From Rikenella microfusus (lineage in GTDB: Bacteria > Bacteroidota > Bacteroidia > Bacteroidales > DYQK01), in contig DYQK01000009.1 in assembly GCA_020719385.1 (NCBI GenBank), positions 8,594 to 45,599 on the forward strand: a stretch of 37,006 bases of DNA. Reading direction: 5' to 3'. Numbering within the stretch: the first letter of the stretch is position 1; each line of letters starts with the position of its first letter. The translations under genes were made by a program, and so were the position numbers. This document shows positions 10,021 through 37,006 of the stretch, piece after piece. The notes under the pieces are model-generated. The model worked only from the letters and a program-made list of their open reading frames with translations, had not been told where the DNA came from and made no database searches.

Positions 10021-10158
10021 AATATTTTCCGAAAAATTTTACATTTTTTTCGAAAACAATTGTTATCTCGTTGATTTTCAAAATATTAAGAATAAAAAAT
10101 ATTTTCGTTGAGAAATAAAAAATTTCGACAATTTTGAGTTGAGAAAAAATTAATTTTT

Positions 10159-10803
10159 TCAAAAACTTGAGTTATTTTTTTCTACATTCAAATATTTTTC
10201 CACTTGCGTTGTTGTTTGAGAGTAAATATTATCAATTATTCCTGCAATTTTTGATAAACTTGTTAAAAGAGCATACGAAAATTCATCTTTTATAAAAATA
10301 TCATTTTGCAAAGTTCCGAATTCCCAAAAAATGCCGTTTGTAACGATTCCAAAAATCTCAAAATGATTATTTTCGTTAAGTTTTTGGCAAGCAATCATTT
10401 CTGCGAGAGTTTGCGCCCATCCACCTGCAAAATCATCTTTTTTTGCGTCTGCAACCGTCAGAATTGGAAAACGCAATTGTTCATAATCATCAATTTCGCC
10501 TTTGTAAGAAATTAAATAATCAGGAATTCCTGATAATTCGGCTTCGCCAGTATCTAAAAAACAATCGTGACTCCACAAATTTAATTTGGGATGTCGTTTT
10601 AATACTTCAAATAAAAGCGGAGAAATCACAAATTCGCATAAAAAATATTCGCTTGAATTTGTTTTTTTCAATTTTAATCCTTCGTGCAAATTTTCAATAA
10701 AATATTGACTCAACGTTAACTCGCTCAATTTGCTTGTTAAATCTTTTTTTAACGTTGTGATTCCATATTTACCGACAACTTTTTGAAAATCGCTAAAAGA
10801 CAT
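10159..10803 (-). CDS. Putative PD-(D/E)XK nuclease-fold protein
   Basis: A 214-residue cytoplasmic protein of no recognised named family. The pattern SGIPDYLIS (P94-D95), then a strand FPILTVADAKKDDF (D119, K121), fits the PD...(D/E)xK nuclease core. E57 upstream, in a helix after SSEYF, could be an additional acidic ligand. The GGWAQTLAEMIACQ helix after the core resembles the Q-containing helix of restriction endonuclease-like folds. The C-terminal part (about 140-214) has the strand IFGIVTNGIFWEFG, common in nuclease-like proteins that process type I R-type substrates. The second catalytic acid is D instead of the more usual E. Its function is unknown; a relation to the neighbouring nuclease gene is inferred only from position and strand. 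Confidence 0.65.
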   Translation of the reverse strand: MSFSDFQKVVGKYGITTLKKDLTSKLSELTLSQYFIENLHEGLKLKKTNSSEYFLCEFVISPLLFEVLKRHPKLNLWSHDCFLDTGEAELSGIPDYLISYKGEIDDYEQLRFPILTVADAKKDDFAGGWAQTLAEMIACQKLNENNHFEIFGIVTNGIFWEFGTLQNDIFIKDEFSYALLTSLSKIAGIIDNIYSQTTTQVEKYLNVEKNNSSF

Positions 10804-10831
10804 AAATTTTAATTTAACAAAATTTTCGAGA

Positions 10832-10839
10832 CAAAGATA
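10832..10839 (-). promoter_or_regulatory. Bacteroidota -7 element (TATCTTTG)
   Basis: CAAAGATA on the plus strand reads TATCTTTG on the minus strand, 28 bases before the ATG at 10803. No clear -33 element was found at the right spacing. Confidence 0.5.
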
Positions 10840-10882
10840 AATTAATTTTTTTGATTTTCCTAATATTTTTGCGAAAAATAAA

Positions 10883-10918
10883 AAAAAAACCTGTTTTCTT
10901 GCGAGAACAGGTTTTTTT
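10883..10918 (-). terminator. Intrinsic terminator of gcvP
   Basis: A 16-bp stem (10883-10898 with 10903-10918, one G-U pair) has the GCAA tetraloop when read on the minus strand, and T-rich sequence follows. It lies 15 bases beyond the gcvP stop. Its core is nearly identical to the hairpin at 8871-8890. Confidence 0.85.
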
Positions 10919-10932
10919 GTGAAAAAATTTAA

Positions 10933-13818
10933 TTATTCGTTGTTATTTTTTCGCCATTCGTCCATTGGCGTGCAAGTACAAAAGAGATTTCTGTCTCCGT
11001 AAGCATCATCAATACGCGAAACGGTTGGGAAAAATTTATTTTCAACAATCCATTTCAACGGATAAGCGGCTTTTTGTCGAGAATAAGAATGTTTCCATTC
11101 GTCAGAAATCACAATTTCTGCGGTGTGAGGTGCATTTTTCAACACATTGTCGTTTGCATCCACTTTTTTCTCTTTGACTTCTTGAATTTCTTCATAAATC
11201 GAAATCATTGAGTCGATAAAACGGTCTAATTCTTGTAAAGATTCGCTTTCTGTTGGTTCAACCATCAAAGTTCCGTGAACAGGAAACGACAAAGTGGGTG
11301 CGTGAAATCCATAATCCATCAAACGTTTCGCAATATCAAGTTCAGATATACCGCTTTGCGTTTTTATTGGTCGACAGTCGAGAATCATTTCGTGAGCAAC
11401 TCTATTTTTTTCACCCGTATAGAGAATGTTATAGAAATTCTTGAGTCTCGAAGCAATATAATTTGCGTTCAATATTGCCATTTTCGTTGCTTCTGTTAAA
11501 CCATTTCCGCCCATCATTTTGATATATGCGTGAGAAATCACCAACACACTCGCACTTCCCCAAGGAGCAGCCGCAACAGCCGACATTCCGCCTTCTCTTC
11601 CGACTTTTACAACGGAATGCGAGGGTAAAAATTTAACTAAATGCTTTGCAACGGCTATTGGTCCAACGCCTGGTCCGCCGCCGCCGTGAGGAATTGCGAA
11701 AGTTTTGTGCAAATTCAGATGACAAACATCAGCACCTATTGACGCAGGATTCGTTAAACCGACTTGTGCGTTCATATTTGCTCCGTCCATATAAACTTGT
11801 CCGCCGTTTTCGTGGATAATTTTGCACATTTCAATAATTGCAGATTCAAAAACTCCGTGTGTTGACGGATAAGTAACCATAAAACAAGATAATTTCTCTT
11901 TGTTTTCGATGGCTTTTTTGCGTAAATCTTCAACGTCAATGTTTCCTTTTTCATCGCAAAGTACAACAACAATGTCCATTCCCGCCATTGCTGCGGAGGC
12001 AGGATTTGTTCCGTGTGCGGAGGCAGGAATTAAAACGACATTTCTGTGTCCATCGCCGTAACTTTTGTGATACGCTTGAATCGCCATTAAACCTGCATAT
12101 TCGCCTGCTGCGCCTGAGTTTGGTTGCAACGAAACATCGGCAAAACCTGTGATTTCGGCTAAATCTTTGCGTAAATCATCGAAAAGTTCTTGATAACCCT
12201 CGGCTTGGTCTTTTGGAACAAACGGATGCAACGCACCAAGTTCTGTCCAAGAAAGCGGTAACATCGAAGTGGCAGGATTCAATTTCATTGTGCAAGAACC
12301 AAGCGGAATCATAGAATGCGTCAAAGAGAAATCTTTGCGTTCCAAACGTTTGATGTAACGCATCATTTCTGATTCGCACTGATAAAGTTGAAATAAATCT
12401 TGTTTCAAAAATTCTGATGAGCGAAGGAATTGTTTGTCGAAGTAAATTTTTTCAGGAATTTCTGTAACTTTCTCAAAAGTTTTATTATTTGCTGTTGCAA
12501 AAATTTCGAGAATATCATTTACGTCATTGACAAGCGTAGTTTCGTCAACACTGATTCCGATGGTTTTGTAGTCGAAAGTACGAAAATTAATTTTCTTTTC
12601 TAACCCCAATTTCTCGATTTGCGAGGCGTGAATATTCTGCGGCATCGCAATTTTCAACGTATCAAAGAAATTATTTATCTCGATTTTGTAACCGAGTTTC
12701 GAGATTTCTTGAGACAAAAATCCTGCTGTTGCGTGAATGTGTTTTGCGATTCTTTTCAAACCTTCGTTTCCGTGATAAACCGCATACATTCCTGCCATTG
12801 TTGCCAAGAGTGCTTGAGCAGTACAAATGTTTGAAGTTGCTTTTTCGCGTTTGATGTGCTGCTCGCGAGTCTGTAACGCCATTCGAAGAGCAATTTTTCC
12901 TGTTACGTCTTTCGAAACCCCAATGATTCGTCCTGGCATTGTGCGTTTGTACTTATCTCTTGTTGCGAAATAAGCTGCGTGTGGACCGCCATAACCCATT
13001 GGGATTCCGAATCTTTGTGTTGTTCCGAGAACTATGTCTGCGTCCCATTCGCCGGGAGGAGTAAGCAAAGTTAAAGACATTAAATCTGCGGCTACGGCAA
13101 CTAAGATTTCTTTGTTATGTGCTTTCTTGACAAATTCTACATAATCAGAAATACTGCCGTCAGCGGCGGGATATTGAATGATGATTCCAAAAACTTTTGT
13201 TGACTGAAATTTACATTCGCAAGATTTTCCAATCATTAATTCGATTCCCAAAGGTGCAGAACGCGTTTTTAACACATCAAGAGTTTGCGGAAAGACATTT
13301 TCATCGACAAACAAAATATTCGATTCGTTTTGTACGTGAGTTTTTGAACGAGAATTGTACATCATAATCATTGCCTCGGCGGCGGCTGTTGCCTCGTCGA
13401 GCAAAGAAGCGTTGGCAATTTCCATTTTTGTCAATTCAATGACAACGGTTTGAAAATTCAACAACGCTTCGAGTCGTCCTTGCGAGATTTCCGCTTGATA
13501 AGGCGTATAAGAAGTGTACCAAGCAGGATTTTCGAGAATATTTCGCAAAATAACTGCAGGAGTAATGGAGTTGTAATACCCCATTCCGATGTAACTTCGA
13601 AAAACTTTATTTTTCGAGAATATGGTTTTAATACGTTTTGCGTATTCATATTCGCTGATTCCATCGGGCAAATTCAACGGTTTGGGCAACCGAATCGAAG
13701 CAGGAATGGTTTGTTCAATTAACTCGTCAAGAGTAGTTACTCCGATTTTGCTCAACATTTTTTGTCGTTCCTCGTTGCGTGGACCAATGTGTCGGGTAAT
13801 AAATTTTTCTATTGCCAT
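10933..13818 (-). CDS. gcvP: Glycine dehydrogenase (decarboxylating), P protein
   Basis: Pyridoxal-phosphate enzyme of the glycine cleavage system. It decarboxylates glycine and passes the aminomethyl group to lipoyl-GcvH, feeding one-carbon units to tetrahydrofolate. The 961 residues are the usual length of the single-chain form. The start is taken at the ATG of [18 protein letters not shown], the typical P-protein N-terminus; the frame stays open 30 codons further but that stretch is AT-rich and overlaps the promoter. The PLP-lysine motif [18 protein letters not shown] is intact, as are the AHGTNPASA and GANMNAQVG blocks. gcvH and gcvT are not nearby. It is monocistronic between its -7 element and terminator. 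The formate-THF ligase gene in this window acts in the same one-carbon network. Confidence 0.97.
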
Positions 13819-27218: not shown

Positions 27219-27243
27219 CCCAAATTTGAAAACAAAAATCATT

Positions 27244-28956
27244 ATGTCAAGAAAATTACTCATTCGAGATGTCACTCTTCGCGATGGTCAGCAGTCTCTT
27301 TTTGCCACTCGAATGTCGCAAAAACAAGTTGATAAAGTGTTACCGCTTTACAGCAAGGCAAATTTTTACGCACTTGAGGTTTGGGGCGGTGCTGTTCCTG
27401 ACTCAATAATGCGTTATCTAAGGGAAGATCCTTGGACTCGTTTGGAAAGTATCAAATCCGCTGTCGGAGCAACATCAAAGTTGACGGCACTTTCGCGAGG
27501 AAGAAATTTATTCGGGTATAATCCGTACCCCGAAAATGTTATTGAAGGGTTTAATCGTTTGGCTGTTCGTTCAGGAATCGATATTATGCGAATTTTCGAT
27601 GCCCTTAACGATACGGAAAATGTAAAATCAACAATAAAATATGTGAAAGAAAACGGCGGATTAGCCGATTGTGCGGTTTGTTACACCGTTGACCCGAAGT
27701 TTTCGTACAAACAACGTGCTTCGATGATTTTGAAAAAGTTAAAATTTCAGAAAAAAGTTTTTACGTTGGACTATTTCATTGAGAAAGCAAAGATTATGGA
27801 GGGTTTCGGTGCCGATATGATTTCAATAAAAGATATGGCAGGTTTAATTCCGCCGTCTTTTTCGGGAAAGTTAGTCGCAAAACTGAAGCAAGAGATAAAA
27901 GTTCCCATTGATTTTCACACACATTGCACTCCAGGATATGGTTTAGCCTCAACCTTGATGGCAATTATCAACGGAATCGATATTGTTGATACGGCATTAT
28001 TGAATTTTGCAGGTGGACCGGCGGCTCCAGCCTTTGAGTTAATACAAATTTTCGCAGATAAATTGGGAATCGACACGGGAGTTAATCTCAAAATTGCGTC
28101 AGAGATAAATCGAGAATTAAAAAACATTCGTCAAGAATTGGCAGAATTTGATAGTTATAAATTATTTCCTATCGAATTTGACATTTCAAATTATAAACTT
28201 CCTTCCGACATTGACAAACTTTTCGATTATGCAGTTCAATATGCACAGGAGGATAAAGAAAAGAAATTGTTAGACGTTTGCAGCGAGATTGAACAATATT
28301 TTCATTTTCCTGAACCTGACGAGGCAGTTAAGAAGGCAGAAATTCCTGGCGGAATGTACACAAATATGCTTGCTCAGTTAAAACAATTAAAATTAGACCA
28401 TCTTTTGCCGCGTGTTTTAGAGAATGTTCCTATTGTGCGTGTTGCGGCAGGTTGTCCGCCGTTAGTTACTCCGACAAGTCAGATTGTTGGGGTGCAGGCG
28501 GTGAACGTGGTTATTGATGAGAATGCTGGAAAACCATTTTACTCGAATAAATCTGTGCAATTTGTTAATTTGGTGAAAGGTAGTTATGGAAAAACACCTA
28601 TCGAAATTGACCCCGATTTTCGTGAGTTGATTTGCGGCGTGAGAGAGGAAATTCCTTACGATACAAGTAATTACAAGAAGCAAGAAAATCCTGTTTACGA
28701 ACATTTAGGCGGCAAACGTTTGGCAAAAAACGAAAAAGAAGAGTTACTTCTCGAATTATTTCCCACCGTTGCGAGAGATTTTTTACATCAAAAAATTGAG
28801 GCGGAATATCGAAACGAAATTGAGACTGTCGAGAATGAACGTCGTCGCGCTTACGAGGCTGAAAAAGAAGCATATCAAAAACTTTCTGCCACAGAGAAAG
28901 AACGAATCTTAATTGATGGACTTTATCATCGTTGGACAAGTTCTATTGACTGGTAA
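27244..28956 (+). CDS. Biotin-dependent carboxyltransferase subunit (pyruvate carboxylase B/oxaloacetate decarboxylase alpha type)
   Basis: 570 residues from the ATG at 27244; a TTG six codons earlier is less likely because it lies almost on the transcription start. The carboxyltransferase TIM barrel begins RDVTLRDGQQS (8-18) with the metal-binding aspartate. K196 in MISIKDMAG is the likely carbamylated lysine, and H225 and H227 (DFHTHCTPG) are metal ligands. A conserved carboxylase domain follows (GGMYTNMLAQLKQL, then TPTSQIVGVQAV). It transfers carboxyl groups between oxaloacetate/pyruvate and biotin. The C-terminus ends soon after a charged helix, with no AMKM biotinyl motif, so a separate biotin carrier is required; none is in the window. 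The exact substrate (pyruvate or methylmalonyl-CoA) is not certain. Confidence 0.9.
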   Translation: MSRKLLIRDVTLRDGQQSLFATRMSQKQVDKVLPLYSKANFYALEVWGGAVPDSIMRYLREDPWTRLESIKSAVGATSKLTALSRGRNLFGYNPYPENVIEGFNRLAVRSGIDIMRIFDALNDTENVKSTIKYVKENGGLADCAVCYTVDPKFSYKQRASMILKKLKFQKKVFTLDYFIEKAKIMEGFGADMISIKDMAGLIPPSFSGKLVAKLKQEIKVPIDFHTHCTPGYGLASTLMAIINGIDIVDTALLNFAGGPAAPAFELIQIFADKLGIDTGVNLKIASEINRELKNIRQELAEFDSYKLFPIEFDISNYKLPSDIDKLFDYAVQYAQEDKEKKLLDVCSEIEQYFHFPEPDEAVKKAEIPGGMYTNMLAQLKQLKLDHLLPRVLENVPIVRVAAGCPPLVTPTSQIVGVQAVNVVIDENAGKPFYSNKSVQFVNLVKGSYGKTPIEIDPDFRELICGVREEIPYDTSNYKKQENPVYEHLGGKRLAKNEKEELLLELFPTVARDFLHQKIEAEYRNEIETVENERRRAYEAEKEAYQKLSATEKERILIDGLYHRWTSSIDW

Positions 28957-28972
28957 CAAAATTTGTTAATTT

Positions 28973-29008
28973 AACAATGCCGTCGCTGAAACGATGGCAT
29001 TGTTTTTT
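28973..29008 (+). terminator. Intrinsic terminator of the carboxyltransferase gene
   Basis: A 13-bp stem (28973-28985 with 28992-29004, one G-U pair), loop CTGAAA, then a T run. It shares the core GCCGTCGCTGAAACGATGGC with the hairpin family seen at 3984 and 22868. The following 120 bases up to the aroB stop hold nothing recognisable. Confidence 0.85.
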
Positions 29009-29124
29009 CTCAAGATTTTTTTTCGAAAAAATATTTACTTTCACAAATTTTTTATTGCGTCTCACGGCTTGGTGAATTCTGAAAAAGCAAAATTTATTTT
29101 TGTGGGAAAATAAAAAATTGCACA

Positions 29125-30195
29125 TTAATTTTGCAAAAAATCAAGTGCTTCGAAAATTTCTGTTTTTGAGAAAACTTGATTTATCAGCGGTTTTCCAATT
29201 TCTTCTAAAATCGTAAAACGAATTTCATTTTTCTCATTTTTTTTGTCGTGACAAAGAAAAGAAAAAATTTTTTCGTATTCATTTTGCGGAATCGAAAATT
29301 TTGTATAAAATTTTTCAATAAAATTCTTAATTTCTTGCACTTTTTCGAGAGAAAATTTCGTTTTTTTTGCAGATAAAAACAATTCACAAATTATTCCATA
29401 CGCAACAGCTTCGCCGTGCAAAAGTTTTTTCTTTCTTTCAGCGGCAAAACTTTCGAAACCATGTGCAAAAGTATGTCCAAAATTCAAAATTTTGCGAATA
29501 TTTTTTTCGTCAGGGTCTTTGCGAACAATATTAATTTTCGTTTTTATCGCAATTTCTATAAATGGTTTCAAAAAATCAACAGAGATTTTTTGTTTTTCAG
29601 AAAAAATTTTCTGCAAGTTATTCCATTCTTCAACATTTGAAATCAAAATAGTTTTCAAAATTTCACCGAAACCTGCAAGTATTTGTCGATAATTTAAGGT
29701 TTTAAGAAAAATTTTATCAATAAAAACGTACTTCGCAAAAGCAAAAGTTCCAACTTCATTTTTGAGATTTTTAAAATTTATTCCTGTTTTTCCACCGATG
29801 GCGGCATCAATTTGTGCGAGCAACGTTGTCGGAATCAAAATAAACGGTATTCCGCGTTTGAAAGTTGAGGCGGCAAAAGCACCCAAATCGCACAAAACGC
29901 CTCCTCCAAGAATGAGAAATAACGATTTTCTGTCTGAATGATTTTTCACCAAAAAATCCCAAATAAATTGAACGGTCTGCAAATTTTTTCGATTTTCTCC
30001 ACTTTTAATTTTTATCAAAAAAACTTGAGAATGATTTTCGAAAAGTAATTTTATCGCGGGAAAACAAAAATTTTCAGTATTTTCGTCGAGTAAAATAAAA
30101 ATTTTCTCTGAAGAAAAATTTTTTAACACATAAAAAAGACTTTTCGAGATATTTTTTGTAACATTGATGATAGATTTTTGCAAAAAAAATTTCAT
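29125..30195 (-). CDS. aroB: 3-dehydroquinate synthase
   Basis: 356 residues, normal length. NAD- and metal-dependent cyclisation of DAHP to 3-dehydroquinate, second step of the shikimate pathway. Key segments are LGGGVLCDLGAFAASTFKRG (dinucleotide-binding), PTTLLAQIDAAIGGKTGIN, the metal-site region GFGEILKT, and ILNFGHTFAHGFES with the HxxxH-type metal ligands, followed by LHGEAVAYG. Its ATG lies three bases after the stop of rlmH, so the two are translated from one message. The stretch is very rich in Phe, Lys and Ile, following the low G+C content. Confidence 0.95.
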   Translation of the reverse strand: MKFFLQKSIINVTKNISKSLFYVLKNFSSEKIFILLDENTENFCFPAIKLLFENHSQVFLIKIKSGENRKNLQTVQFIWDFLVKNHSDRKSLFLILGGGVLCDLGAFAASTFKRGIPFILIPTTLLAQIDAAIGGKTGINFKNLKNEVGTFAFAKYVFIDKIFLKTLNYRQILAGFGEILKTILISNVEEWNNLQKIFSEKQKISVDFLKPFIEIAIKTKINIVRKDPDEKNIRKILNFGHTFAHGFESFAAERKKKLLHGEAVAYGIICELFLSAKKTKFSLEKVQEIKNFIEKFYTKFSIPQNEYEKIFSFLCHDKKNEKNEIRFTILEEIGKPLINQVFSKTEIFEALDFLQN

Positions 30196-30198
30196 TTT

Positions 30199-30669
30199 TC
30201 AATGATGATAAGGTTCATTTTTCAAAATTGTCATTGCTCGATACAATTGTTCAACGAAAATTAAACGCACTAATTGATGCGAGAAAGTCATTTTTGAAAG
30301 CGATAATTTTTGTTTATATTTTTGATGAACGGAATCTGCGAAACCATAAGCACCTCCGATGACAAAAGCAAGATTTTTTGTTCCTGAAATAGTTTTTTTC
30401 TCAATAAATTTTGCAAATTCTACGGAGGAAAAATGTTGACCGTTTTCGTCTAACAAAACTGCATCATCGCAATTCTTTAAACTATTGATTATCAACGTAC
30501 TTTCGAGATTTTGTATTTGTTCTTTTGATAAATTTTTTGGGTTTTTTATATCAGGAATAATAAAAATTTCAAAAGTCAGATAATGTTTAATTCGATTTTC
30601 GTACATCAAAATTCCTTCTTTTAGAAAATCAAAGTCAGTTTTTCCTAAAAAAATTAACGAAATTTTCAT
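30199..30669 (-). CDS. rlmH: 23S rRNA (pseudouridine1915-N3)-methyltransferase
   Basis: 156 residues from the ATG of MKISLIFLGKT; an in-frame ATG seven codons earlier is possible but the family starts here. A SPOUT-class enzyme methylating pseudouridine 1915 in helix 69 of 23S rRNA. The SAM-binding knot is visible as LAFVIGGAYGF, followed by LSLSKMTFSHQLVRLIFVEQLYRA and the conserved C-terminal end NEPYHH. Its stop is three bases from the aroB start. It is separated from nadE upstream by a palindromic terminator. Confidence 0.96.
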   Translation of the reverse strand: MKISLIFLGKTDFDFLKEGILMYENRIKHYLTFEIFIIPDIKNPKNLSKEQIQNLESTLIINSLKNCDDAVLLDENGQHFSSVEFAKFIEKKTISGTKNLAFVIGGAYGFADSVHQKYKQKLSLSKMTFSHQLVRLIFVEQLYRAMTILKNEPYHH

Positions 30670-30683
30670 TTTTTTACGATTTT

Positions 30684-30723
30684 TTAACAAAACCCTGTCA
30701 GGTTTTGAGAAACCTGACAGGTT
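30684..30723 (-). terminator. Palindromic hairpin between nadE and rlmH
   Basis: CCTGTCAGGTTT (30694-30705) pairs perfectly with AAACCTGACAGG (30710-30721), loop TGAG. Each arm is itself nearly palindromic (CCTG.CAGG). On the minus strand a T-rich stretch follows, so it can end the M16-rdgB-nadE message. Confidence 0.75.
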
Positions 30724-30738
30724 AAATTGAGATAGCGT

Positions 30739-31563
30739 TTAAAAACCTTCGTTAGTAATTTTTTCTCTTGGAATATTGAACGGATTATTTCGTTTAAAAC
30801 TTGAATTTCGATTTCGCAAAACCACAGGATGCGTTTTTAATGTTTCCTCAAGCGTGTTGTAAATTACTTTTCGCAAAATTAAATCGACTTCTTCGTATGA
30901 ATTTGCTCCAATTTGGTCTAAATCGCTGTTTGTAATTCCGAGTCCGTCTGTTGGTGTGGCGTTTACGCAGTCTAAGAGTGCTTGCGAGGCATTTTTGTCA
31001 GTGAGTTTTGAGGCAACAAAACGACTCATTTCATAGACTTCGGTTTTCCAAAGTTGCTGAATCATTCCATAATCGCCGACATCTCCGTGCAGAGTCCAAA
31101 AACCAAGCAATAATTCAGTGAAATTATCTGTCGAAAGCACCATTCCTTTGTGTTTGCTTGCCAATTCGTACAAATAAATCATTCGCATTCTTGCTTTGAG
31201 ATTGCCCATTCGCAATTTATACGGTATTTCTGTTTTATTTTCTGTCTCAAGATTCTCGACCATCATTTTTTGTAATGCGAAAAATGATTCTGACAGGTCA
31301 ATTTCTTTGAAATCTGTGCCGAAATATATTCCGATTCGTTTTGCTCTGTCAATTTCGTCAGGTTTATTCGAAACAATTGTAATACTGCGACAAATCAAGG
31401 GAATTCCGAGTTCATCGCACACAGGACGCGCCAGGGCTGCACACAAAGCACTGTCAATTCCTCCCGAAACACCTAAAATCAAGGATTTTAACTTGAAATT
31501 TTCGAGATAATTTTTCAATTCGTTGCGAATATTCGCAACAGAGGTTTCATAATTTTTAATCAT
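30739..31563 (-). CDS. nadE: NAD(+) synthetase, ammonia-dependent type
   Basis: 274 residues, the length of the single-domain form without a glutaminase domain. It makes NAD from deamido-NAD, ATP and ammonia, the last step of NAD synthesis. The ATP pyrophosphatase motif is SGGIDS (33-38). Further conserved parts are [36 protein letters not shown] and the C-terminal [11 protein letters not shown]. Its start overlaps the stop of rdgB by four bases, showing translational coupling. Confidence 0.93.
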
Positions 31564-32153
31564 TTTTCACAAATTTTTTGAGTTAAAAATTCGAACAATT
31601 TTTTTGTCGCCATTCCGCGATGTGAGATAATATTTTTTAATTGTGGAGACATCTCAGCGAAGGTTTGGTCGAAACCTTTTGGCAAAAATATTGGGTCGTA
31701 GCCGAATCCGTCATTTCCTCTTTCAAAAGTTAAAATTTCGCCTTCAACAATTCCTTCGAATTGAAATTCTTTTCCGTCTAAGACAAGCGAAATAACGGTT
31801 TTAAATTTTGCTTTTCGATTTTCGATTTCGTTCATCTCGGCTAAGACTTTGCGAATGTTGTCTGCGAAACTTGCTCCCTCGCCTGCGTAGCGAGCCGAGA
31901 AAACGCCTGGTTTTCCGTTCAATGCTTCGATTTCGAGTCCTGTGTCATCAGAGAAGCAGTTAAAACCATATTTGTCGTAGACAAAAAACGATTTTTGCGA
32001 GGCATTTCCTTCGATAGTTGGTTGAGTTTCGGGGATTTCTTCGAGACAACCAATGTCGTTGAGTCCGAGAATTTCGAAATTAGTTTTTTCGAGGATTTGT
32101 CGGATTTCTCTTAGTTTGTGAATGTTGTGAGTTGCAAAAACTAATTTTTTCAT
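31560..32153 (-). CDS. rdgB: XTP/dITP diphosphatase (RdgB/HAM1 family)
   Basis: 197 residues, full length. It removes deaminated purine nucleotides (XTP, dITP) from the pool, preventing their incorporation into DNA and RNA. It starts with the phosphate-binding [11 protein letters not shown] (the T/SHNxxK motif). Other conserved blocks are [58 protein letters not shown] and the C-terminal SHRGMA. It overlaps both nadE downstream and the M16 peptidase upstream by four bases, so the three genes form a tight operon. Confidence 0.96.
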
Positions 32154-33388
32154 TTTTCCCGCAAATAATACAAAGTTGAAGAATTTTCTTTTCGAAAAAC
32201 ATTTTTCGCAGTTTCCTGAACATTTTGCATCGAGACATTTCGATAAAACAAAATTTCGCTATTTACCTGATTTGTGTCTCCTAAAAGTGTGTGAAAACAA
32301 AGATTCATAGCCCGACTCAGCGGTTTCATATCTGAAAACGTTAATGTTGACTCTGCCTTATTTTTCACTTTTTCGAGTTCATATTCGGAGATAAATTCTG
32401 TTTGCAAACGAGAAATCTCTTCATTTATTGCGTTCTCGGCGTCTTGCATTTTTGCGCCGTCCATAAGATTGCCCGAAATAACAAACAAACCATTTTCTAT
32501 TTCGTCACAGAGATACGCATCAATGTCGCTGAACAATTTTTTCTTTTTCAACAAATTTTGATACAACCTCGAAGAACGTCCGTTGGCAAGAATATCGGAG
32601 ATTAAATCGAGAGTGTAAAATTCTCTTTCAACTCTGCCGCAAATGTGAAACGTTTTATAAATTGCATCGAAAGGCACTTTTCTGTGAACGGTCAATGTTC
32701 TTGCTTCGGTTTGTTCGGGTTCTTGCGGCAAGGCACGAGTCAGAATATTGCGTTTCGGAATATTTCCAAACCATTTTTCTGCAAGATTTTTGATATATTC
32801 AAACTTAAAATTTCCCGCAACGCACAAAATGGCGTTATTGGGTGCATAATGTTTGAAAAAAAATTCCTTTACATCATCCAAATTTGCTTTTTCGATATGA
32901 GAAATCTCTTTCCCAATTGTTGCCCATTGATATGGATGCACTTTGTACGCAAGAGGACGCAACAAAAGCCACATATCGCCGTAGGGCTGATTCCAATAAT
33001 GTTCGTTAAACTCCTCAATAACAACACTTTTCTGCACATCAAGAGATTTTTGTGAGAAATCCAATTCCAACATTCTGTCTGATTCGAGCCAAAAGGCTGT
33101 TTCGATATTTTCCTGCGGAATAGTTAAATAATAATTTGTAATGTCATTTGAGGTGAACGCATTTTCTGAAGCGCCTACTTGCTGAATTATTGTGTCGTAG
33201 TCAGGAATATTTCTTGAGCCGCCAAACATTAAATGTTCGAAAAGATGTGCAAAACCTGTCTTGTCGGGATGTTCATCTTTTGCACCGACATTATATAATA
33301 GGTTAAACGCCGCAATGGGTGTAGACTCGTCTTTGTGAAAAATGACCTTGAGTCCGTTATTGAGAGTAAAATTTTCAAATTCTATCAT
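32150..33388 (-). CDS. M16-family zinc metallopeptidase
   Basis: 412 residues, one pair of M16 domains. The inverted zinc-binding motif HLFEH (48-52) is intact, and a downstream glutamate is available in [11 protein letters not shown]. The C-terminal M16 domain has the usual [20 protein letters not shown] and [22 protein letters not shown] segments. No signal peptide is apparent, which suggests a cytoplasmic or unconventional location; many Bacteroidota M16 proteins carry one, so the start was checked: the next upstream codons contain no better ATG before the promoter. It overlaps rdgB by four bases. The substrate is unknown. Confidence 0.92.
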
Positions 33389-33670: not shown

Positions 33671-33678
33671 TATCTTTG
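33671..33678 (+). promoter_or_regulatory. Bacteroidota -7 element of the FlgP/FlgT-like operon (TATCTTTG)
   Basis: TATCTTTG fits TAnnTTTG, 21 bases before the ATG at 33700. The nearest TTG (33655-33657) is too close (13 bases), so the -33 box is poor and another factor may be needed. Confidence 0.55.
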
Positions 33679-33699
33679 TAAAATCTAAATTTTTCGAAT

Positions 33700-34581
33700 A
33701 TGAATTTGAAATTTGTAAAATGGTTTGCTATTTTAGCAATATTTTTTCAAGTCAATGGTTTGTTTGCCCAAGGAAAAACAACCACTATTGACACTCTTCG
33801 CAACGAGGCTGAGAAAAACCGTAATAATCACGTAATTGTCGGCAACGATTCGGCGTACGTAGATTGGACTGTTCAATATGTTGTTGTAAAAGGTACAAGT
33901 TTTATTGATTCTGCGAAATGGAAACCTTACGGCAGAGCCGTTTCGATGGCTGTTCGAGGTGCAGAATTGATTTGTTACCGCAAACTTCTCGAAACTATCA
34001 AAGGAGTAAGAGTCATCGGCGAGACGACAGTCGAAAATATGATGACAAAAAGCGATTATGTTTACTCAAGAGTAGATGGAATAATCAAAGGAGCAGAACA
34101 AGTTGGCGAGGTAGAATTTGGTGCGCATGGTCAGGTTACTGTTACGATGCGAGTTCCGATTTACAGACGCAACGGTCTTGCCGAGGCAGTTAGCGATGGC
34201 ACGCAGGAGCGTCAGCAAAATACGAATGTTCAGTCTGCTCAGCAAGTAATTATGAGAGTTACGAATCAACAAGGTCAGCAGGTAAATCCTCCGATTTTTC
34301 CCAAGGTTACGGATGAAAATGGAAATGTTTTGTTAGATTTGGCAAAAAGTTATGACCCGAAAAATCCTGGGAAATTTCCTTCGATGGTAAAGTTGGGAAA
34401 AGCGGCGTTACAAAAATCGGGACAGGGAAAAGCGGTGCAAGTTATTGATGCTGTTTTGGGGAAAGATGGCAATTTGCAGGTGAATTCGCAGCAAGACGGT
34501 GGTTCTGGCAACGGTTCAACGTGGTTAAAAGTGTTGGGAACTGTGGCAGATATCGGTAAATATTTGTTACTTTTGTTGTAA
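33700..34581 (+). CDS. Exported LPP20-like (FlgP-like) protein
   Basis: 293 residues with a signal peptide ending NGLFAQ (about 24). Residues about 55-165 resemble the LPP20 domain: an alanine-rich helix GRAVSMAVRGAELICYRKLL followed by IKGVRVIGETTVEN, SRVDGIIKGAEQVGEVEF and a closing strand HGQVTVTMRVPI. LPP20 proteins include Vibrio FlgP, an outer-membrane ring protein. The C-terminal part (about 170-293) is Gln/Asn-rich (QERQQNTNVQSAQQ), then has DLAKSYDPKNPGKFPSMVKLGKAA, and ends with a short hydrophobic stretch. There is no lipobox cysteine, so it is probably periplasmic or outer-membrane associated. It is the first gene of a three-gene operon; the role is unknown. Confidence 0.75.
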   Translation: MNLKFVKWFAILAIFFQVNGLFAQGKTTTIDTLRNEAEKNRNNHVIVGNDSAYVDWTVQYVVVKGTSFIDSAKWKPYGRAVSMAVRGAELICYRKLLETIKGVRVIGETTVENMMTKSDYVYSRVDGIIKGAEQVGEVEFGAHGQVTVTMRVPIYRRNGLAEAVSDGTQERQQNTNVQSAQQVIMRVTNQQGQQVNPPIFPKVTDENGNVLLDLAKSYDPKNPGKFPSMVKLGKAALQKSGQGKAVQVIDAVLGKDGNLQVNSQQDGGSGNGSTWLKVLGTVADIGKYLLLLL

Positions 34582-34599
34582 AATTTTAAGAAAAACGCA

Positions 34600-35562
34600 A
34601 TGAAATTTTTATTTTTCATATTTTCGTTCATATTTTTCGTAGAATCGTGCAGTAATTCTTCGAAAAAATCAGATTCTGATGACAAAAAATTGGATTCTGA
34701 TACTTCAAAAGCAAAAACTGAAGTAATTTCTGACACTTCTGATTTAAAAATGGAAAAAGATTCGTTTAAAATTGAGAAAAGTGAAAATTTCATTGTGCTT
34801 TTTGACTGCAAAGATTCAGTTAATATTGAAGTTTTCGATTTTTGCTGTACTCTCGTGAAAGAAGTTTTGGCAAAAAATAATCTTTCTTACAAAGAAGTTT
34901 CATCTTATGACAAGACGTTGTCGCTTGAAAATTCAACGTTTTCGGCAGTTTCGAAGATGGCATTTTTTTACGGCGTGCCGAATGTTATTGAGGTGAAGAA
35001 TGTAAAAATCGAGATAAAAGAAAAAGGCAGCAATGCTTTTGTGGGCAACGCAAGAGTTGAGATAAAAGTGTTTGATAATTGCACCGAGAGCGGCATTTCG
35101 ACGGTTTTTGCCGAGTGCAAAGAATTTTCGTCAGAAAATTATATCGAAGTTCAGGAAACAATTATCAGGGAAGCTGTCAATGAAGCCGCAAAAACTTTTA
35201 TTCCTGAGGTGAAAAAATATTTTTCGAAATTCGAGACGGAAGGTATTCCGTATCAAATAAAAATTTTTGAGAATTTATCTTACAGCGAATTTTCAAAAAT
35301 TCAGAAAAATTGGGCAGAAAATGCAAATTTGCAGATTTCTGAAGGTTTAAAAGTTGGAGATTTTTATAAAATTAATGGTTTTTCGAAAACGAATCCGATA
35401 AATTTAGTTGAAAATTTGCAAAAAAGTTTAATCTCGCAAAATTTTACTTCGTTAATTCCAAAAATCATTTATCATCGTCAAATTTGGTTTTCTAAAAAGC
35501 AACAGAATTTTCCTATCATTATTGAGAAGGAGAAATTTTTACAACGACAAATGGCATTATAA
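34600..35562 (+). CDS. Lipoprotein paralogous to the C-terminal part of the FlgT-like protein
   Basis: 320 residues. The hydrophobic N-terminus (1-16) ends in the lipobox VESC with the acylated cysteine at 17, followed by a Ser/Asp/Lys-rich linker (to about 60). The rest aligns by eye with residues about 120-391 of the next protein: GNARVEIKVFDNCTESG matches ANASIEIKAWDACNQEG, EGIPYQIKIFENLSYSEF matches NGATYQIRFYQEMEYMEH, and PKIIYHRQIWF matches PQIIFGRQISL. The FlgT_N-like part is absent. It lies 18 bases after the LPP20-like gene and 27 before the FlgT-like gene. It is probably anchored in the outer or inner membrane facing the periplasm. Confidence 0.78.
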   Translation: MKFLFFIFSFIFFVESCSNSSKKSDSDDKKLDSDTSKAKTEVISDTSDLKMEKDSFKIEKSENFIVLFDCKDSVNIEVFDFCCTLVKEVLAKNNLSYKEVSSYDKTLSLENSTFSAVSKMAFFYGVPNVIEVKNVKIEIKEKGSNAFVGNARVEIKVFDNCTESGISTVFAECKEFSSENYIEVQETIIREAVNEAAKTFIPEVKKYFSKFETEGIPYQIKIFENLSYSEFSKIQKNWAENANLQISEGLKVGDFYKINGFSKTNPINLVENLQKSLISQNFTSLIPKIIYHRQIWFSKKQQNFPIIIEKEKFLQRQMAL

Positions 35563-35589
35563 TTTTCACATTAAAAATATTTTACGAAA

Positions 35590-36765
35590 ATGAAACGTAC
35601 AATTTTCATTCTTTTTTGTCTTTTTATGAGTCTTGTTGGTTTTTCGCAAGATTCAAAAACCGTAGAAGTCAAAGGCGTTGGCAGCAGTCGAGATGAGGCA
35701 CTCAATAACGCCATCCGCACCGCTGCCGAGCAAGTAGGAATCGAGGTAACATCCGAAAGTCAGATGGAAAACGGTGCATTAATCCGAGATGCTATTTCCA
35801 CTAAAGCACAGGGAATCGTTCAAAGTTACGATGTTCTCGAAGAAACACCCTTAGGCAAACATTATGAGATCAAGATTCGGGCTATTGTTAGCAAATCTGC
35901 TATCAAACAAGACGCCGCAACTCTTTCGCAGATGCTTGGGCAGTTGAAATTTATTGTCATTTACGACCCAAGACAAATGAAAAGTGAAATGAATCAGACC
36001 GAATTGGAGGCAACAGATTTTGCGTATGAACGTGTAAATGAACAACTTGCCAAAAAAGGTTACAAATATCAAGAGGCAAAAATTTTCAAAGACCTTGACG
36101 ACCTTTTGCCAGGAATTCAAAATGACGAACTGGCTTTTGTCAACAAACTTGGTTTTTATTATCAGTGCGAATTTGTTATTCAAATCAAAAAAATGAGAAT
36201 ACAAGTTGAGAAAAAAGCAGGAAATATGTGGGTTGCAAACGCAAGTATTGAGATAAAAGCGTGGGATGCTTGTAATCAGGAAGGTCTTGGAACAACGGTT
36301 ATCACAAACGACGAACCTGGTGTTAATCCGAATCAACAAGTTGCTATCGAAACGGCAATAAAATCGGCTATCAACGATAAATTTGGTAAATTGTTGTATT
36401 ATTTTAACAGATACATGGCAGATTGGTTGAAAAATGGAGCAACTTATCAGATTCGTTTTTATCAAGAGATGGAATATATGGAACACAAAGCACTTCGAGA
36501 TAAATTGAAAGCCGATGCAAGTTTCGGTGGAGAAATGCAAATTATGTCTGCTGGCGGCTATATGAAACTTGAATGTTCTTTCAAAGCGAAACAACTTGAG
36601 TTTATTGATAAATTAATGGAAAACATTGAAGGTGCCGACCGTTTGAAAAAATATCAATTTGAGCCGCAAATTATTTTTGGTCGTCAGATAAGTTTAATTA
36701 CGCGGGGCAAATCTATTCCTCTTTTGCAGGAAAAAGTAGACTTTTTGAAGAAAGCAAGCAAATAA
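35590..36765 (+). CDS. Exported protein with FlgT N-terminal-like domain
   Basis: 391 residues with a signal peptide ending LVGFSQ (about 20). Residues about 24-110 follow the pattern of the flagellar assembly protein T N-terminal domain: VEVKGVGSSRDEALNNAIRT, AAEQVGIEVTSES, MENGALIRDAIST, then GIVQSYDVLEE and YEIKIRAIVS. The remainder (about 120-391) is an alpha/beta domain shared with the lipoprotein upstream. FlgT forms the H ring of the Vibrio flagellar motor; no other flagellar gene is present, and the same fold occurs in non-flagellar envelope proteins. It is followed by a terminator, so it closes the operon. Confidence 0.78.
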   Translation: MKRTIFILFCLFMSLVGFSQDSKTVEVKGVGSSRDEALNNAIRTAAEQVGIEVTSESQMENGALIRDAISTKAQGIVQSYDVLEETPLGKHYEIKIRAIVSKSAIKQDAATLSQMLGQLKFIVIYDPRQMKSEMNQTELEATDFAYERVNEQLAKKGYKYQEAKIFKDLDDLLPGIQNDELAFVNKLGFYYQCEFVIQIKKMRIQVEKKAGNMWVANASIEIKAWDACNQEGLGTTVITNDEPGVNPNQQVAIETAIKSAINDKFGKLLYYFNRYMADWLKNGATYQIRFYQEMEYMEHKALRDKLKADASFGGEMQIMSAGGYMKLECSFKAKQLEFIDKLMENIEGADRLKKYQFEPQIIFGRQISLITRGKSIPLLQEKVDFLKKASK

Positions 36766-36787
36766 TAATTTTTTTTTTTGTAAAAAT

Positions 36788-36820
36788 ATCTGCCAGATTT
36801 TTAGGATTTGGCAGATTTTA
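36788..36820 (+). terminator. Intrinsic terminator of the FlgP/FlgT-like operon
   Basis: ATCTGCCAGAT (36788-36798) pairs with ATTTGGCAGAT (36806-36816) over 11 bp with one G-U pair, a seven-base loop, then a short T run. Confidence 0.75.
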
Positions 36821-36843: not shown

Positions 36844-37006
36844 ATGACAAATTTTAAAAATAGTGACTATTTTATTATTCCGAATCCTGTTTATGATGTG
36901 GTTTTCAAATACTTGATGGAAGACCCTGAAAGTGCGAAAATCGTTTTGAGTACGTTAATCGGGTATAAAATTCTGAATCTTGAGTTCGAGCCGCAAAGTT
37001 TTACCA
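36844..37006 (+). CDS. PD-(D/E)XK nuclease-family transposase-type protein (5' part)
   Basis: The first 54 codons are visible and the gene runs off the right edge. The N-terminal phrase IIPNPVYDVVFKYLMED, then AKIVLSTLIGYKI and LEFEPQS, is typical of the PD-(D/E)XK nuclease family related to Rpn/transposase_31 proteins, which are abundant and often multi-copy in Bacteroidota. The catalytic residues lie beyond the window. The start follows the terminator of the previous operon by 24 bases. Confidence 0.7.
   Translation, partial: MTNFKNSDYFIIPNPVYDVVFKYLMEDPESAKIVLSTLIGYKILNLEFEPQSFT

Follow-up and report, generated by a model that had tools for sequence, protein, structure and literature searches.

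FlgP, found in the Campylobacter basal disk and the Vibrio H-ring, and FlgT, the organiser of the Vibrio H-ring (structure 3w1e), belong to structures that are seen as additions to the flagellar motor and whose origin is open. FlgO and FlgP are described as outer-membrane lipoproteins in the available part of PMC7990780, and the Vibrio fischeri genes flgP, flgO and flgT carry consecutive locus numbers, with flgO in the middle, in the available part of PMC6375700. According to the accessible sections of PMC12222027, an insert makes the β-sheet of the FlgP rings; within the FlgP family, FlgT included, ring formation correlates with this insert, which follows the SHS2 helix and precedes the second strand; and the hairpin insert is unique to FlgP among the folds shown there, Lpp20 among them. 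The LPP20/SHS2 fold is already known outside flagella, Lpp20 (5ok8) and HP1454 (4kzs) of Helicobacter pylori being secreted, non-flagellar examples. Here we describe a cluster of three genes at positions 33700-36765, all on the forward strand, of a 37,006-nucleotide stretch of Rikenella microfusus DNA (contig DYQK01000009.1; the whole stretch is henceforth referred to as the window). The three exported proteins that a first-pass annotation had placed here were confirmed as open reading frames (ORFs) and are henceforth referred to as P1, P2 and P3: each of P1 and P3 carries an N-terminal Sec signal peptide, as judged by reading the sequence, and P2 has a lipobox-like VESC motif. The reading we favour, at a probability of about one half, is that the locus encodes an outer-membrane ring system which is related to that of FlgP and FlgT and works apart from flagella.

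Domain content of P1, P3 and P2

P1 (33700-34581, 293 residues) had been called an LPP20 (FlgP-like) protein; its LPP20/SHS2 domain lies at about residues 46-169. Taken as a single sequence it scores 10.8 bits against the Pfam family LPP20 (cut-off 25.9), which is not significant by itself; across the 28 members of its family, 17 match LPP20 at E ≤ 0.1 (best 1.4e-5). A profile built from these 28 members matched five distinct sequences in the PDB at E values from 5.6e-13 to 1.8e-5, of which two are named FlgP and three are deposited only as 'lipoprotein'; the best (E 5.6e-13) was FlgP in 9hmf, the Campylobacter jejuni motor scaffold. Up to E 10 the same profile matched neither Lpp20 (5ok8) nor HP1454 (4kzs), which share with P1 a non-flagellar secreted SHS2 fold and differ from it in this respect, nor dodecins. 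Foldseek searches with a structural model of P1 likewise put FlgP 9hmf_A on top (E 1.3e-4, probability 1.00, TM-score by target 0.67), as the only match below 0.001. The fold aligner VIA also placed P1 on Lpp20 (Z 6.9), on HP1454 (Z 5.5), on FlgT 3w1e (Z 6.6, 70 residues at 2.3 Å) and on dodecins. Residues 61-90 and 131-150 of the model have a confidence (pLDDT) of about 94-96, the mean being 64. An LPP20 search of the R. microfusus genome gave no match anywhere and was equally silent in the controls, so that it is uninformative. With the relatives included, the case is clear that P1 is, by its sequence, a predicted secreted protein of the FlgP family. It resembles FlgP in the SHS2 domain and in the insert between helix and strand, and differs in that it is no lipoprotein, in that about 130 further residues lead to an amphipathic helix, and in that its genome has no match to FlhA or flagellin.

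The insert of P1 occupies residues 101-144 (34000-34131, forward strand), the place of the ring-forming β-hairpin of FlgP as described in the available sections of PMC12222027, and in the model these 44 residues separate the SHS2 helix (77-100) from the next strand (145-153). The profile alignment of P1 to FlgP runs through the insert without gaps, and that of P3 is likewise gap-free through the hairpin insert. Conservation within the P1 insert averages 0.68, compared with 0.79 for the helix, and 10 of its 44 columns are conserved at ≥90%. Judged from these alignments, P1 keeps the insert that makes the ring-forming β-sheet in FlgP, its hairpin geometry being modelled without confidence. A hydrophobic segment closes each of the 28 family members; in P1 the last 21 residues (34516-34578, forward strand) form a predicted amphipathic helix, modelled at residues 273-292 with low confidence, and in 19 of the 28 no more than 5% of the shuffled compositions (500 each) reached the hydrophobic moment of the segment. 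None of the 28 proteins has a lipobox. The C-terminal helix, for which the accessible sections of papers on FlgP describe no counterpart, may thus stand in for the lipid anchor of FlgP.

P3 (35590-36765, forward strand, 391 residues) had been assigned a FlgT_N-like domain: its match to Pfam FlgT_N (E 2.1e-5, 25.4 bits) lies just under the cut-off of 28.8, 25 of the 29 members of its family match FlgT_N at E ≤ 0.1, and Foldseek ranks Vibrio FlgT 3w1e first (E 2e-9 over 396 columns, at an rmsd of 14.9). The model of P3 is good (mean pLDDT 82.6) and divides into a FlgT_N-like SHS2 domain (residues 22-101), a middle domain resembling CsgG, PelC and TolB_N (118-282) and a C-terminal α/β domain (284-372). 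The second Foldseek match was 8z5n_0 of the Vibrio LPHT ring (E 3.2e-8), a chain that we take to be FlgT from the pattern of matches; CsgG (2.9e-5), HpaA, PelBC and GNA1162 followed, with LptE also among the matches. VIA aligned P3 best with PelC 5t10 (Z 10.8, 122 residues at 2.5 Å, in the middle domain), followed by 8z5n_0 (Z 10.0, 151 residues at 3.1 Å) and 3w1e (Z 9.9, 206 residues at 8.8 Å); it barely covered the C-terminal domain, so that what we say of folds concerns the other two. The domain identities are well supported by these models, and by these matches P3 has the N and M domain architecture of FlgT 3w1e, in which a TolB-N/CsgG-like domain comes after a FlgT_N-like one. It differs from FlgT in scoring just short of the FlgT_N cut-off, in that FlgT_M is rarely matched (2 of 29 family members, best E 0.034) and in that no flagellum genes were found in its genome. 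The P1 profile aligns with that of P3 across the SHS2 domain and the insert (E 3e-8), and FlgP 9hmf is matched by the N-terminal domain of the P3 profile as well (E 1.1e-5); LpoB-like proteins were not matched by the P3 profile. In 4 of the 29 P3 relatives the residues beyond the SHS2 domain match DUF6175 (PF19672), in one of them (L073) above the cut-off (E 4.8e-7); when profiles were compared, three DUF6175 proteins gave no significant match (E 0.051), and we treat the putative link as a lead. Scattered Pfam and NCBIfam matches of single relatives of P1 and P3 were taken as chance.

P2 (34600-35562, forward strand, 320 residues) lacks the FlgT_N-like domain. As the first-pass annotation had noticed, it shares its C-terminal part with P3: residues 64-316 are homologous to residues 121-388 of P3 (BLASTP E 1e-27, 25% identity over 271 columns). 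Its sequence thus describes a predicted lipoprotein with a second copy of the last two domains of P3 and no SHS2 domain. Neither P2 nor P3 has a significant sequence match to the Pfam families of the FlgO/CsgG/PelC/GNA1162/LpoB/TolB-N group; the middle domain of P3 resembles this group by fold, and the module of P2 is of the CsgG type only through its homology to P3. A Pfam scan up to E 10, the filters of which drop weak matches, found no match of P2 to FlgO (PF17680), and because of this we regard the position of P2, that of FlgO in Vibrio, as a probable parallel and not as orthology. A surface-export signal on P2 was considered and dropped, since by reading its acidic patch does not directly follow the cysteine, as the rule for such signals requires.

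Distribution of the pair and absence of flagellar genes

We followed the genes in 393 genomes of the order and, in a separate scan, in single genomes representing 84,980 species, where an alignment-based search gave 30 named Bacteroidota loci; a single-sequence P3 scan of contigs found no relative. P1 is present in 13 of the 393 order genomes, a set that overlaps with the 30 named loci and is not independent of them. P3 has matches in 22 of the 393, nearly full length in 14 and over about the first 107 positions only in the other eight; all 13 genomes with P1 are among the 14, and the fourteenth (G235) is 76% complete. P1 and P3 adjoin each other in 11 of the 13, are split by P2 in the R. microfusus genome and lie on different contigs in one (G173). 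They are neighbours on one strand in 28 of the 30 named loci, 26 in the order P1-P3 and two reversed; the exceptions are L053, which has no P1 there, and L074, which starts at a contig edge. P2 was found in none of the 30 named loci and in none of 14 fetched loci of relatives, R. microfusus being the only genome in which it was seen. The expectation that the trio would be conserved across Bacteroidota therefore failed, and the conserved unit is the pair of P1 and P3, inherited together and usually accompanied by a gene for a DUF4476 protein.

The gene that follows the pair in the 30 loci encodes a DUF4476 protein in 23, an LpoB-like protein in three and a DUF4384 protein in two, and in two the contig ends there. 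DUF4476 as the usual third gene was also seen at 10026-11135 of locus L010, besides the 23 loci among L051-L080; no DUF4476 gene above threshold is present in the R. microfusus genome. It had also been asked whether a CsgG- or FlgO-like gene travels with the operon, and sometimes one does: in two genomes (G069 and G173) proteins that match CsgG, LpoB or TolB_N lie near the cassette (CsgG E 9.2e-8 and 3e-6; LpoB E 0.0025 for the gene downstream in G069), and to these come the three LpoB-like genes, the other loci mostly having DUF4476. The cassette occurs in Bacteroidales, Cytophagaceae, Flavobacteriales and Schleiferiaceae, and a named strain, Adhaeribacter soli MA2 (L068; NZ_VTWT01000002.1, about 194.8-198.2 kb), carries it. 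In a phylum sample of 395 genomes, for which only 4-5 candidates per genome were scored so that copies can be missed, full-length matches were confined to the R. microfusus genome, so that the cassette appears to be sporadic. Partial P1 matches came from six further genomes of this sample: that of G504 covers just the FlgP-like domain (E 1e-13), and the other five lie in N-terminal positions 1-105 and are probably chance; partial P3 matches came from eight genomes, all over the N-terminal part. P1 and P3 also point to two protein families without a fitting NCBIfam model: for the proteins of the window none reached its cut-off, and none that fitted turned up among the relatives.

Bacteroidota with this cassette appear to do without flagella. 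FlhA was matched in none of the 13 order-sample cassette genomes and in none of the 30 named ones, and flagellin (Flagellin_N) in none of the 13; control genomes were matched in 4 of 14 cases each time. Both models also went unmatched in the R. microfusus genome, in agreement with the earlier remark that no flagellar genes are visible. A role for P1 and P3 as parts of a flagellar motor or H-ring is thus not borne out, FlhA and flagellin being missing from the cassette genomes searched.

Several observations concern gene neighbourhoods. Adjoining the cassette in two loci (L044, 57-3409; L051, 4478-7830) are genes for a DUF4384 protein and for a protein that joins a caspase domain to an FGE-sulfatase domain. 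At three Bacteroidales loci (L012, 2347-7488; L013, 1645-6504; L015, 4498-8516) genes for a DUF6175-type protein, a protein of about 335 residues, a protein with a FlgT_N/LPP20 domain and an exported protein of about 165 residues stand close together, at one of them near an ArdC-type anti-restriction gene. That the protein of about 165 residues might be a second FlgP was unsupported (profile-profile E 0.008, probability 5; no PDB match). A second copy of P3 lies on another contig of the R. microfusus genome (C76; L011, 262-1426), in which near-identical stretches alternate with diverged ones when it is compared with P3 of the window, as after gene conversion. Because its reading frame shifts at a run of A near position 856, this copy is broken or mis-assembled, the copy in the window being intact. 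After the C76 copy come two genes belonging to the LpoB-like group, neither of which matched LpoB in its own Pfam scan.

A putative ring and competing explanations

We infer the formation of a ring from the homology of P1 and P3 to FlgP and FlgT, and with it the location, anchoring and client that follow. Through its hairpin, P1 would assemble into a ring at the periplasmic side of the outer membrane, where the C-terminal amphipathic helix, not lipid, would hold it. P3 would dock on this ring by its own SHS2 domain, with the PelC/CsgG-like domain turned to the periplasm, and in R. microfusus P2 could tether extra copies of the PelC/CsgG-like module to the membrane by its lipid. Such a ring might support, as a scaffold or brace, some non-flagellar structure of the outer membrane. 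It had been proposed that the locus is a non-flagellar ring or export complex made of FlgP and FlgT parts; the parts stand, by profile, by fold and by their occurrence in genomes without FlhA matches, and nothing points to export specifically. Several observations weigh against a ring. The cassette is rare, even within the order, and none of the genes adjoining it is a conserved candidate for the channel to be scaffolded. FlgP is a lipoprotein and P1 is not; the model of P1 is poor as a whole, and the first half of its insert falls under a pLDDT of 50, as does the insert of P3 at residues 51-73. The full-length superposition of P3 on FlgT is loose (TM-score 0.26-0.28, besides the 8.8 Å over 206 residues), so that the domains match but the evidence does not extend to their mutual arrangement. 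Lastly, 16 of the 29 P3 proteins weakly match Leptospira LipL46 (best 1.5e-5).

The last match belongs equally to the main competing explanation, which we consider rather unlikely: an envelope complex without a ring, in which SHS2/LPP20 and CsgG-fold proteins form small oligomers or adaptors in the manner of Lpp20, HP1454 or LipL46 and perhaps regulate peptidoglycan or outer-membrane assembly. Lpp20 and LipL46 are not known to form rings. The likeness of the P1 fold to Lpp20 (Z 6.9), the missing lipid on P1 and the LpoB-like genes adjoining the cassette in three of the 30 loci and in the paralogous R. microfusus locus would all suit such a complex, but the FlgP-type insert is kept in both P1 and P3 and conserved nearly like the core, and the P1 profile finds FlgP and neither Lpp20 nor dodecin. 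An outer-membrane scaffold for export or polymer secretion, with the middle domain of P3 and P2 ringing a channel as PelC does and P1 as base plate, is improbable: VIA does align the P3 middle domain best with PelC, and PelBC, CsgG and LptE were matched as well, but this fold is widespread and reveals no function, and no β-barrel or synthase gene adjoins the cassette in a conserved manner. Still less credence goes to relic or horizontally acquired H-ring genes flgP, flgO and flgT, kept after loss of the flagellum or received from a flagellated donor. The order P1, lipoprotein, P3 resembles that of the Vibrio fischeri genes in the available part of PMC6375700. Against this descent, FlhA is missing throughout the two overlapping genome sets, and P2 copies the module of P3 itself and has no FlgO match in Pfam. 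The cassette moreover spans the four Bacteroidota groups named above, with a third gene for DUF4476, which is not known to be a flagellar part.

Our preferred reading remains a ring system related to that of FlgP and FlgT and independent of flagella, and a FlgP/FlgT-like pair without flagella would be a candidate for a non-flagellar use, or for the source, of H-rings and basal disks. The pair suggests that the domains of these ring parts also serve a non-flagellar job in the cell envelope. That flagella-less Bacteroidota build a stand-alone FlgP- and FlgT-like outer-membrane ring, anchored by C-terminal amphipathic helices, which could represent a pre-flagellar state that gave rise to H-rings and basal disks, is a tentative and somewhat doubtful extension. 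Our searches of open-licence papers turned up no account of a conserved FlgP-FlgT-type pair in Bacteroidota without flagella, nothing that joins FlgP or LPP20 with Bacteroidota and nothing relevant on DUF4476 or DUF6175. The available parts of PMC5758724 and PMC6375700 contain no word beginning with 'Bacteroid', and PMC8831229 was set aside as a report on LPP20, as LPP20 in its available part is a Legionella locus tag.

Boundaries of the gene cluster and neighbouring sequence

The genes are separated by 18 nt (P1-P2) and 27 nt (P2-P3) according to the ORF list. The sequence TATCTTTG at 33671-33678 (forward strand), 21 bases before the start codon of P1, fits TAnnTTTG, the -7 element of Bacteroidota promoters, and may serve as a promoter; the pattern is frequent across the window, with 64 occurrences where chance would give 51. 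At the other end a terminator-like 13-bp hairpin with a short T tail (36788-36816, forward strand; z -3.18) lies 22 bases past the stop codon of P3, and because the tail is short it does not appear in the list of a terminator scan. P1, P2 and P3 form a transcription-unit-like cluster. The first-pass annotation had called it a closed operon, which is likely but not proven, since the hairpin is not in the scan and the contig (C179) ends with the window, so that downstream sequence is missing. This contig probably breaks in a repeat, because DNA like its last 227 bases recurs at 11 other sites of the genome.

The upstream neighbours (27226-33388) are ordinary housekeeping genes, for a carboxylase, DHQ synthase, a SPOUT methyltransferase, NAD synthase, Ham1 and an M16 peptidase. 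Downstream, the contig ends inside an ORF (36844-37006), the 54-residue piece of which has no Pfam match and, by reading, looks like Rpn/PD-(D/E)XK transposase-nucleases. Contig C76 opens with the end of an ORF of similar look (L011, 1-228), just before the second P3 copy, and the two contigs may for this reason be neighbours.

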